Source of the DNA: Microbacteriaceae bacterium VKM Ac-2854
Lineage (GTDB): Bacteria > Actinomycetota > Actinomycetes > Actinomycetales > Microbacteriaceae
Length of the DNA: 64,000 nt
Direction of reading: 5' to 3'
Assembly (NCBI GenBank): GCA_013205085.1
Contig: JABMLH010000003.1
Span: 124,001 to 188,000 of the forward strand
Part shown: positions 10,131 to 16,137 of the stretch, piece by piece
Numbering within the stretch: position 1 is the first letter of the stretch
Layout: each line of letters begins with the position of its first letter
The notes under the pieces: generated by a model
What the model was told of the DNA's origin: nothing
Databases searched by the model: none
What the model saw: the letters and a program-made list of their open reading frames with translations, nothing else
Program-made: the position numbers and the translations under genes

Positions 10131-12212
<2,082 letters not shown>

Positions 12213-12396
12213 GGAGTTCAGCCTACTTTCCGGCACCGACACCGACCGCGCGACGCTCCCCGGAGCCGAGACGGAATCGGATGCCCGACTACGCGCAGGG
12301 CGAAATGCCGCCGAATCGTCTCCGGGACGAAACAAACGCGTGCTTTGATGGGTTACAGATCACAGAACGTGAAGCAATGAGTCAGGAGGCCAAGAC

Positions 12397-12633
12397 ATGT
12401 CGACCATCGCAACCGAGAACGGCGCCGTGGACGAGCTCGCGGGTGCCCACCAGCTCTCCGCCGCCGACCGCTGTGACAGCTGTGGCGCGCAGGCGTACAT
12501 CCGCGTCGTTGTGAACAGCGGAGAACTGCTGTTCTGCTCGCACCACGGCAAGAAGTACCAGGAGAAGCTGTCCAGCATCGCGACGAGCTGGCACGACGAG
12601 TCGGCGCGACTCTTCGAGGAACAGCGCCCCTAA
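12397..12633 (+). CDS. DUF7455 small zinc-binding protein
   Basis: 78-residue actinobacterial protein of the family now called DUF7455, often found beside the principal sigma factor as here. Cysteines and histidines CDSCG (26-30) and CSHHG (47-51) look like a metal site. Function is unknown. AGGAGG lies 8 nt before the ATG. It is convergent with gatD, with only 10 bp between stop codons. Confidence 0.85.
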   Translation: MSTIATENGAVDELAGAHQLSAADRCDSCGAQAYIRVVVNSGELLFCSHHGKKYQEKLSSIATSWHDESARLFEEQRP

Positions 12634-12643
12634 CCTTCGTCCC

Positions 12644-13372
12644 TTACTTCACGAGCCGCTTCGCGATCACATCGCGGGCGGCTCGTGCCGTTTCATCCGC
12701 GGCACGCGCGTCCGGGTTCTCCGCGGAGTAGGCAACACCGATCCGTTCCGCGACACGCCCGAGAATCGCATCCGCGACGAGCGGGTTCTTGGCCAGCAGC
12801 GGACCGTGCACGTGGCTACCGAGCAGCGTGCCGGAGGCGTAGCCCTCCGTGCCGTCGCCGTTGCCGACTCCGTAGCTCACGGTACCGAATGCCGAGCCCG
12901 CAGGGATGCCGACGAATCGGCGCAGATGGTTCTCGAACCCCACCACGGTGCCCAGCGCCGTCTCGGCGATGATGTCGTCCGTGACGCGTTCGGTGCCGAT
13001 CACCGCGTGACCCGGGAAGATGCCGGCCCCTGCGACGAACCCACCCGTGGTCTGCGTGCCCTCGCTCAGCAGCTCCCAGCCACCGCCGAAGGCGACGATC
13101 TCCGCGCCTTCGCCGTGCCAGTCGCTCAGGCGGTCGGCGTTGGCCAGCACGATCTCGCGCGCCGCGGGGAGATCATGAGCGGCACCGGTGCCGACCACAA
13201 CGACCGCCGGCGCCGCCGTCAGCCCGCTCCAGTCCTCGCCGAGCCGAACGACGTCGACCTGGGCGACGCCGGCCCAGCGCGCACGCGCGGCGAGCACACG
13301 CGCGTTCGCCGCATCGCCGTTGCTGTCCAACAGTTCGGGGAGGACGACGGCGATGGTCAGGGCGGTGCTCAC
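12644..13372 (-). CDS. gatD: GatD-like type 1 glutamine amidotransferase lacking the catalytic Cys
   Basis: Resembles GatD, the glutaminase half of the MurT/GatD lipid II isoglutaminyl synthase. 242 residues. Family landmarks are GTVVGFENH (141-149) and GSHVHGPLLAKNP (185-197, with His189 of the catalytic pair). The nucleophile elbow, CGGY in known GatD, reads AFGGGWELL (94-102): the Cys position is Gly96 (codon GGC, 13085-13087). The upstream GGGSD-EQ element is GTGAAHDL (61-68). Glutamine hydrolysis by the usual thiol mechanism is therefore not expected. Its ATG overlaps the murT stop by 4 bp, so the two are translationally coupled. The family is certain; activity is not. Confidence 0.85.
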   Translation of the reverse strand: MSTALTIAVVLPELLDSNGDAANARVLAARARWAGVAQVDVVRLGEDWSGLTAAPAVVVVGTGAAHDLPAAREIVLANADRLSDWHGEGAEIVAFGGGWELLSEGTQTTGGFVAGAGIFPGHAVIGTERVTDDIIAETALGTVVGFENHLRRFVGIPAGSAFGTVSYGVGNGDGTEGYASGTLLGSHVHGPLLAKNPLVADAILGRVAERIGVAYSAENPDARAADETARAARDVIAKRLVK

Positions 13373-14640
13373 AGGGCGCTCTCTTCGCGGTTGGACGTCA
13401 GTTCGAGGTGGGCGCGGGTGCGTCGCATCGAGTCGGCGGAGAAGACGATCGTCTTGCGCCCCGTGGTCGGCGTCGGCAGAGCGAGGAAGTCGTCCAGCGC
13501 TCGGCCGAGGTCCTCCTCGACGGAGTCGATCCGCACGCCGTCGTAGCGCAGCTGCAGCGCGGCCTCGTGCGCCTTCGAACCCGACACGACGCGCACGTGG
13601 CCGAGCACCGAGGTGTCCACCGGCCAGAAGTACGACGGATCGCGCACGTCGGATCCGATCGCGAGCATGATCTGCTCGGTGCCCGGCTCGATCTCGTCGA
13701 TGTTGAGCTGATAGCTGGCCGGGTTCTGTACCAGCACGAACTCGACCTCCTGGCCGCGCACGGTCACGATCTCGCCGCGACCGAAGACCGGCTCGATCGC
13801 CGACAGCGCGGCCGATGTGACGGTCGCGTCGAAGCGGGCGCCGAGGACGGCCCGCGCGGTCGCCACCGCGGCGGCAGCGTCGACGGCGTAGTGCACACCC
13901 TTCGCGGGCAGACGGATGTCGAGCTCGTCCGAATCGCTGCGTATGCGCGCGGCTGTGCCCGAGGTCGATTCGACCACCGTGGACGCGAGCGACGAGCCGG
14001 CCTCGGACGCCGACGCGTAGCCGAGGCCCTGCGCAGCCTGCGCGAGCACCGACTCGGAGACCCCGTACCAGCGCGGCAGCGAGTCGCCCAGCGCGGTCGC
14101 CAGCTCGGCGACGTAGCGGTCGTCCGCGTTCAACACCACGGCGTGCGTCGCGCGGGACGCGATCGTGCCGAGCATCCGCGCGACCATCTGCGGGTCGAAG
14201 AAACGGTCGATCTGATCGACCATCACGTTCGTCAACGCGACCACGCGCGGGCGGATCCGCGGAGCGAGTCGCGCGCCGTGGCCCTCGTCCATCTCCAGGA
14301 CCGCGATGTCGGCGTCGATGCGCCCGGTCACCGAGGCGCGCTCCAGCAGCGCGGAGGTGAGCCCCTGGGCGATGTTCGCGGTCGAGGGGTTCGTGAAGAC
14401 GCGCAGCCCGTGGGCGCGCAGAACGGCGACGAGCATCTTCGTTGTGGTCGACTTACCGGCCGAGCCGGTCACGACGACGAGGCCGTCGCGGAAGCCGTCG
14501 AGCGTCGACGGCAGGAATCCGGGCGCGATCCGGTTCACCACCAGCCCGGGAACGGCAGAACCGCCCCCCGGCTTGCGGATGCGCGCCGCGACCCGGACCA
14601 CCCTCCCGAGGAGGATGGCCGGGCCGTGTCGCAGCGGCAC
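13369..14640 (-). CDS. murT: MurT-like Mur ligase (divergent, no zinc ribbon)
   Basis: Mur-ligase-family protein of the MurT/DUF1727 type, which in S. aureus activates the alpha-carboxyl of D-Glu in lipid II with ATP. 423 residues. The P-loop is TGSAGKSTTT (58-67), against TGTNGKTTT in typical members. IAVLEMDEG, ALTNVMVDQIDRFFD and VVLNADD are conserved. The protein contains no cysteine, so the Cys4 ribbon of known MurT is absent. In the C-terminal domain VLVQNPASYQLN matches the KNPAG-N motif and RDPSYFW matches RD-SW. GTG at 14638-14640 follows the sigA stop by 5 bp; no separate promoter is obvious, so it is probably read from sigA. Confidence 0.87.
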   Translation of the reverse strand: MPLRHGPAILLGRVVRVAARIRKPGGGSAVPGLVVNRIAPGFLPSTLDGFRDGLVVVTGSAGKSTTTKMLVAVLRAHGLRVFTNPSTANIAQGLTSALLERASVTGRIDADIAVLEMDEGHGARLAPRIRPRVVALTNVMVDQIDRFFDPQMVARMLGTIASRATHAVVLNADDRYVAELATALGDSLPRWYGVSESVLAQAAQGLGYASASEAGSSLASTVVESTSGTAARIRSDSDELDIRLPAKGVHYAVDAAAAVATARAVLGARFDATVTSAALSAIEPVFGRGEIVTVRGQEVEFVLVQNPASYQLNIDEIEPGTEQIMLAIGSDVRDPSYFWPVDTSVLGHVRVVSGSKAHEAALQLRYDGVRIDSVEEDLGRALDDFLALPTPTTGRKTIVFSADSMRRTRAHLELTSNREESAL

Positions 14641-14645
14641 TCGGC

Positions 14646-15932
<1,287 letters not shown>

Positions 15933-16137
15933 TTGCCGGGCACCTCTCCATCCGTCGCGTCCCGTCGGCCGACGACCCGGTTCAGGTCTCGCCGATCGGT
16001 GGGCATTACGAGGACCCATGTCAAGTCGAGGGAATTCCGCGACAGACCGAATGTCGTCACTCCTCGACCCGAACGGGTCCTATTGACAATTATTGCACGG
16101 ATGAGTAGAGGCGCCGTTCACACCTCGGGGAGGTGGA

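Follow-up and report, generated by a model that had tools for sequence, protein, structure and literature searches.

Why should a bacterium keep the glutaminase subunit of a cell-wall enzyme once its catalytic cysteine has gone? The question is raised by a murT-gatD gene pair of Microbacteriaceae bacterium VKM Ac-2854, which lies within 64,000 nucleotides of assembly GCA_013205085.1 (contig JABMLH010000003.1, positions 124,001 to 188,000), a stretch to which we refer, at its full length, as the window. Both genes are on the minus strand, with gatD (12644-13372) and murT (13369-14640) overlapping by 4 bp. They fill a slot bounded upstream by sigA (14646-16019, minus strand), whose stop is 5 bp from the murT start, and downstream by parE (10131-12335, minus strand), which also served us as species marker. 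In group B cell walls, a trait of taxonomic use for decades, the alpha-carboxyl of D-Glu is occupied by the cross-bridge. Our best reading of the sequences is that this pair, and an unrelated CofE-like ligase that occupies the same slot in relatives, would be interchangeable ligases placing the bridge amino acid of group B walls on D-Glu. For the pair itself, it is probable that the enzyme is an ATP-dependent ligase that joins this amino acid, and not ammonia, to the D-Glu alpha-carboxyl.

The pair belongs to the MurT/GatD superfamily, as judged by three Pfam domains above their cut-offs, namely, GATase_3 in GatD (43.6 bits, cut-off 27) and Mur_ligase_M (56 bits, cut-off 24) and MurT_C (27.2 bits, cut-off 25) in the Mur-ligase-type subunit, together with the fold of GatD. 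The AlphaFold model of the latter (predicted local distance difference test score 95.9) superimposes on S. aureus GatD (6gs2_A) with a template modelling score of 0.86, that is, a class I glutaminase fold without its nucleophile. The nearest solved structures are the S. aureus and Streptococcus GatD/MurT, and the NCBIfam equivalog cut-offs are not reached by either GatD (49.8 of 400 and 72.7 of 450) or MurT (87.1 of 800 and 82.6 of 800). Alignment to the S. aureus proteins bore out the residues listed in an earlier sequence-only reading of this DNA: Gly96 of GatD aligns with the glutaminase nucleophile Cys94, GTGAAHDL replaces the GGG-D-EQ oxyanion element, His189 and the GFENH motif are retained, and MurT has a TGSAGKST P-loop (Lys63) and zero Cys. 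In addition, GatD has Asn18 at the gate position, Tyr17 in S. aureus, and Arg129 at the glutamine-capturing Arg128, while Asp334 of MurT, preceded immediately by a deletion of three residues, corresponds to S. aureus Asp349 and would complete a triad with His189, a His that varies in class II (defined below). Compared with the lipid II isoglutaminyl synthase MurT/GatD of S. aureus, S. pneumoniae and M. tuberculosis, the pair has in common the two-gene arrangement, the folds, the ligase residues, the interface Asp of MurT and the glutamine-binding Arg, but it differs in the absence of the glutaminase Cys, the replaced gate Tyr and the three-residue deletion in the C-terminal domain of MurT.

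The gene overlap, the short gap to sigA and the intact frames noted in the same reading also held, as did its view that the pair is selected. Ratios of nonsynonymous to synonymous substitution rates (dN/dS) against three relatives were 0.20-0.37 for gatD and 0.12-0.23 for murT, with no frameshift, which indicates purifying selection. A second murT/gatD, which that reading had named as counting against it, was not found, as the genome has a single MurT_C match and a single GatD match. Its use of the lost zinc ribbon as a sign of new function had to be abandoned, since the MurT stretch read contains 0-3 Cys in most canonical Cys-type pairs of the order, and a ribbon is absent from most of these too; indeed, a Cys4 ribbon is present only in a subset of MurT (PMC6113224; here and below, papers are cited for the part of their text that was available).

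The strongest evidence for interchangeable bridge ligases comes from the exchange of genes in the sigA-parE slot. In ten of the MurT-less stretches that were first mapped, and in further slots mapped later, the place that murT-gatD takes in the window is filled by a CofE-like ligase, again bounded by sigA and parE; the five such proteins tested match F420_ligase with 28.9-53.8 bits (cut-off 25). The ten slots also hold an ATPgrasp_ST gene (eight of ten), a gene of the alanine-racemase fold (five) or a diaminobutyrate aminotransferase (two, of which the one tested scored 601.8 for TIGR02407, cut-off 552.2); racemase-fold genes adjoin murT-gatD as well in Leifsonia, Labedella, Microbacterium, Humibacter, Microcella and strain STN6. 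Across 120 Microbacteriaceae genomes, a CofE-like gene scoring at least 365 bits occurs in 16, all of them among the 22 that have no MurT, and in none of the 77 with a Cys-less-type MurT (Fisher p = 9e-9, uncorrected for kinship). It directly follows sigA in all 12 carriers inspected. The same exclusion is seen in the 18 family genomes of a sample of the order, which shares four genomes with the family sample: 11 have the Cys-less pair and seven the CofE-like gene, with no overlap. The ATP-grasp gene is found in 14 of the 16 CofE-like genomes, in four of seven with a third type of MurT, and in two of the 77, both from genus g19, in which the MurT that was read is aberrant. In one family genome (G053), a CofE-like gene adjoins an odd MurT together with a degenerate GatD.

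A quick ParE tree, with support only from the Shimodaira-Hasegawa-like approximate likelihood ratio test, has 61 rows, of which 43 bear either the pair or the CofE-like gene, and the state changes 12 times. Five well supported sister pairs, starred in this tree, differ in state, namely, Microbacterium hydrocarbonoxydans and G258, Humibacter and G057, STN6 and G091, Labedella and G001, and Microcella and G074. For class I the support is weaker: genus g79, whose one member read (G079) is of this class, has five genomes with the pair and one, G299, with the CofE-like gene. Where two unrelated enzymes repeatedly take each other's place at a single locus, a shared function is most likely, and neither of them has an evident ammonia source. 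CofE-type enzymes are known to ligate amino acids to carboxylates. The slot protein is related to the F420-0:gamma-glutamyl ligases (PF01996), a Pfam family different from those of MurT/GatD, and its best sequence match in the PDB is weak (E 0.007); the wall role that we propose for it would be the same as that of the pair.

A domain of this kind was also detected, at 151-199 bits, in 19 of 230 genomes from the rest of the order. The seven proteins read are encoded by frames of 865-950 codons, in which it stands at the C-terminal end, preceded by domains of the asparagine-synthetase type (recognized by Pfam in six; L373 gave no Pfam match). None of these 19 genomes has a strong MurT match, against 81 of the 230 overall (hypergeometric p = 0.0002, again uncorrected for kinship). 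The N-terminal MCG of the amidotransferase is kept in four of the seven fusions (families f18 and f6) and lost in three (f12). It is tempting to speculate that the AsnB-CofE fusion may be an alternative D-Glu amidase, and that the free-standing CofE-like protein may be that ligase without its glutaminase, in parallel with the Cys-less GatD.

How widespread the Cys-less pair is was assessed at several levels. Among 70 GatD frames (loci L002-L071), each accompanied by MurT, the nucleophile position is Cys in nine, another residue in 60 (44 Gly, 12 Ala, two Ser, one Thr and one Asn) and an aligned His in one. A motif scan for Cys-less MurT in a collection of named genomes returned 98 stretches, 96 of them in records assigned to Microbacteriaceae by NCBI; the pattern matches only 18 of the 70 loci, no Cys row among them, and the scan therefore samples rather than counts. 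Within these 98 loci we read 74 GatDs, 73 with Gly, Ala or Asn, one unreadable and none with Cys. The two remaining records, 'Planococcus sp. APC 4015' and 'Corynebacterium-like bacterium B27', share the sigA-murT-gatD order and may be misnamed. The 120 family genomes, tallied by hand from scores plus the sequences read, with sequences that were not fetched classed by their A1 score, comprise 77 with the Cys-less type (G038 and G099 being known from fragments), 12 with only a canonical pair, seven with the third type, two odd cases and the 22 without MurT. In the order sample (248 genomes, 18 of the family, the best few candidates per genome being scored), Cys-less MurT reached 549-595 bits in 11 family genomes and never more than 413 bits outside the family. 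The sequence-only reading had also said that the same Cys loss in A-type species with amidated D-Glu would tell against it. No such loss was seen in the rest of the order, where Cys is retained by all 40 of the GatDs read (19 from L211-L229, 11 from L260-L271, where L264 showed no GatD, and 10 from L283-L292), in genomes without an assigned wall type. In our samples the Cys-less pair is thus confined to Microbacteriaceae. Since 43 of the 120 family genomes are without it, the proposal in its simplest form, a single ligase serving every group B wall, is rejected for the sampled family, if the whole family is of group B.

Some members of the family depart from both the canonical and the Cys-less pattern. 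The third type (L184-L189, L272, L296 and L297) has a Cys-rich insert in MurT, and its GatD carries FTHNA(L/A)EV(L/F) where the Cys motif would be and lacks a His at position 189, with the Arg kept. A further Cys-less kind, marked by a DQLHRW motif (L279, L282 and L032), occurs as a second copy in Amnibacterium setariae and Glaciihabitans tibetensis; in G018, which has an ATP-grasp gene, no other copy was found. Genomes of 1.1-1.7 Mb (L275-L278, L194 and L197) combine an extremely degenerate GatD with well-kept class I motifs in MurT.

A MurT tree of 40 rows recovers the Cys-less proteins as one clade (support 100/99), within which we recognized, after the data had been seen, class I (Rathayibacter with the window, Plantibacter, Agromyces, Compostimonas, Glaciihabitans, Microterricola and Amnibacterium), class IIa (Leifsonia, Clavibacter, Subtercola and Herbiconiux), class IIb1 (Mycetocola, Microcella and strain STN6) and class IIb2 (Curtobacterium, Frigoribacterium, Frondihabitans, Labedella, Humibacter and Microbacterium). 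The placement of the window agrees with a ParE tree of 31 taxa, where it groups with Rathayibacter (support 100/100) and is 89% identical to Rathayibacter sp. SD072. These classes were compared with the diamino acid of the wall. We take the walls of Rathayibacter, Plantibacter and Leifsonia to contain diaminobutyric acid (DAB), those of Curtobacterium ornithine (Orn), and those of Mycetocola and Microcella Lys. From the literature, DAB is recorded for Compostimonas and Glaciihabitans, D-Lys for Frigoribacterium and Orn for Frondihabitans (PMC7033078 Table 3), and DAB again for Subtercola (PMC5945732), Herbiconiux (PMC10011130) and Clavibacter (PMC5882085), while Microbacterium has D-Orn, L-Lys or DAB depending on the species (PMC10757982).

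The division between classes I plus IIa and class IIb agrees with the labels derived from papers in 12 of 12 rows (eight genera), and with all labels, the background ones included, in 24 of 24 rows (14 genera). Humibacter, Labedella, Amnibacterium, Microterricola, STN6 and Leifsonia sp. Root4 stand outside this count, their labels being ambiguous or not known; Root4 was also too short for the MurT tree, Agromyces appears in the MurT tree alone, being absent from both the ParE tree and the count, and the MurT and ParE rows of Clavibacter and Curtobacterium flaccumfaciens come from different strains. ParE rejects the class IIb (Orn or Lys) genera as one clade (approximately unbiased test, p = 0.0018, for a group named post hoc), and MurT therefore tracks wall type more closely than ParE. 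EctB, a DAB-making enzyme, was tried as a genomic proxy for DAB walls and set aside as too sparse (21 of the 120 genomes at E 1e-90). Family restriction, sorting by diamino acid and exchange with the CofE-like gene together lend the group B bridge role put forward in the sequence-only reading some support, short of proof.

To see which residues are kept and lost in each class, columns were counted for canonical (n = 10, one being the third-type L071), class I (36), class IIa (38), class IIb1 (10) and class IIb2 (44) rows, with seven other rows left out and some genomes counted twice. Position 96 is Cys in 90% of canonical rows, Gly or Ala in class I (85% and 14%), Ala, Gly or Ser in class IIa (47%, 47% and 5%), and Gly in class IIb1 (80%) and class IIb2 (100%). 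Arg129 is present in 90, 100, 97, 90 and 100% of rows, respectively, from canonical to class IIb2, and is invariant across 30 aligned Cys-less rows. The gate position is Tyr in 90% of canonical rows, Asn in 88% of class I, 94% of class IIa and 100% of class IIb1, and Ser or Thr in 97% of class IIb2; Asn148 of GFENH is Asp in all of class IIb2 and Asn elsewhere. In MurT, Lys63, Asn84, Asn89, Glu116, Asp118, Glu119 and Asp334 are invariant columns (A1), and the Cys-less proteins have GSxGK in place of GTNGK and have lost three residues just before the equivalent of S. aureus Asp349. In S. aureus GatD, Arg128 binds glutamine and Tyr17 seems to obstruct its entrance, and R128A, C94A and H189A each abolish glutaminase (PMC5871853); C94S and C94G show no glutamine-dependent amidation (PMC6113224; PMC3266927). 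Glutaminase activity through another residue was rejected in general, the position being Gly, Ala, Ser, Thr or Asn, and His189 being Lys, Gln, Gly or Asn in much of class II. The simplest chemistry suggested by these columns would be a functional ligase whose ammonia source is gone and whose amino-acid-capturing Arg is kept.

Based on these results, a reaction can be proposed. As in the rest of the family, ATP would phosphorylate the D-Glu alpha-carboxyl of the wall precursor on MurT. In place of ammonia, the amino acid that forms the first or only residue of the bridge would probably attack through its amine. GatD would be needed for the site, and the glutamine pocket, now opened, may keep the amino acid bound through Arg129, a step of which we are less confident. 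What we infer in this scheme is which carboxyl is the substrate, which amine is joined to it, and the reuse of the glutamine pocket, with the gate Tyr changed to Asn, Ser or Thr. In the genus of the window the residue added would be a diaminobutyric acid, going by the wall type of Rathayibacter. As a guess drawn from wall types, the Cys-less pair might serve one-residue bridges (D-DAB, D-Orn or D-Lys) and the CofE-like ligase with the ATP-grasp protein two-residue bridges. The complete proposal, which we offer tentatively and regard as possible, is that two unrelated, repeatedly exchanged slot ligases build group B walls, each being a D-Glu amidase minus its glutaminase (MurT/GatD in one case, AsnB-CofE in the other), with the pair adding a diamino acid directly, the CofE-like and ATP-grasp proteins making a two-residue bridge, and the dead GatD pocket holding the amino acid.

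Between an amino acid ligase and a structural GatD whose MurT takes free ammonia, the two options left by the sequence-only reading, the first is favoured, without being proven. The second, an ammonia-dependent D-Glu amidase resembling some synthetases, is the main rival, and an unlikely one in our estimation. It draws its best evidence from the S. aureus enzyme carrying the very same substitution: C94G MurT/GatD uses ammonia at pH 8.5, and GatD is required, MurT alone being inactive (PMC3266927; PMC6085368). A dead GatD can therefore serve an ammonia enzyme, and His189 and Asp334 are retained in the window. However, C94G has no such activity at pH 7.5 (PMC3266927), and an ammonia enzyme would have no use for the glutamine-capturing Arg, which is kept; the gate Tyr, too, has changed. 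Nor would it be expected that MurT classes track the wall diamino acid, or that the pair is exchanged for a CofE-like ligase, which racemase and ATP-grasp genes accompany in several genomes; moreover, in group B walls the bridge already takes the carboxyl that would be amidated.

That MurT classes follow the diamino acid would be equally expected if the pair ligated an amino acid or ammonia to another carboxyl of the precursor, for instance the one left free on the bridge diamino acid, a different enzyme starting the bridge. The presence of both CofE-like and ATP-grasp genes in the slot of some relatives, which suggests that more than one step is served there, also fits this improbable alternative. 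It is opposed by the nearest characterized homologues, which use the D-Glu alpha-carboxyl, by the conserved site residues of MurT, and by the finding that the cassette's ATP-grasp gene has no match in 75 of the 77 Cys-less genomes. A pair in decay and on its way to loss is very improbable and was already disfavoured; most full-length GatD matches in the family are only 28-56% identical to the window protein, and GatD is very degenerate in small genomes, but the dN/dS values of 0.12-0.37, the absence of frameshifts, the fixed place after sigA in named genera and the occurrence in 77 of 120 genomes speak against it.

Several observations weigh against the amino acid ligase that we prefer. A canonical and a Cys-less pair occur together in G054 and G066, both among the 77, and in Leifsonia virtsii and Leifsonia sp. 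71-9, which lie outside the 120-genome sample. Twenty of the 120 genomes (12 canonical only, six with neither and two odd) are without the Cys-less pair, a third-type pair or a strong CofE-like gene, and another enzyme is required there, if they are of group B. In nine canonical-only genomes and three of the six empty ones that were mapped, sigA adjoins parE with no space for a pair; G049 has transporter genes at this place, and several of the 20 form one cluster in the ParE tree. A group B wall is also found outside the family, in Erysipelothrix (PMC4062643), beyond our survey. The MurT side of all five starred sister pairs is of class IIb and none of class I, the class of the window, whose own slot has no racemase, ATP-grasp or aminotransferase gene. 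The sorting by wall type depends on post hoc classes, on labels of which half are background and not drawn from papers, and on Microbacterium being labelled non-DAB at the level of the genus. It is also without formal significance, because a sign test on the species tree finds a single wall contrast on well supported branches. Humibacter, for which both Orn and DAB are reported (PMC6346192), sits in the Orn/Lys branch of the MurT tree. Finally, among the genomes read, EctB is present in nine of 42 of class I or IIa and in one of 17 of class IIb (p = 0.25); the window genome gave no match at E 1e-90.

Between gatD and parE, on the plus strand of the window, there is a frame for a small, conserved Cys-rich protein (12400-12633, start not fixed) with the pattern DRCDSCGAQAY...LLFC.HH. 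Several relatives with an empty slot have similar short frames next to parE.

The open-access literature, to which our searches were directed (subscription papers being outside their scope), covers canonical MurT/GatD and archaeal MurT. The pseudomurein Mur ligases and archaeal MurT-like proteins are Mur-domain ligases of other wall polymers; the MurT-like ones have no GatD, and in the part of the source available no Cys-less GatD partner is reported for them, which sets them apart from the window pair (PMC11915815). Among the matches listed, we found no enzyme that starts the group B cross-bridge, no Cys-less MurT/GatD, no group B bridge genes and no CofE-like protein in a wall role; a Streptococcus wall modification entry mentions a gamma-glutamyl ligase (PMC13059722, in the part available). 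The present analysis provides two candidate enzymes and one locus, with close relatives that have either, and the question of how the group B bridge is started therefore becomes directly testable. It also suggests a route by which a glutamine amidotransferase may turn into an amino acid ligase.

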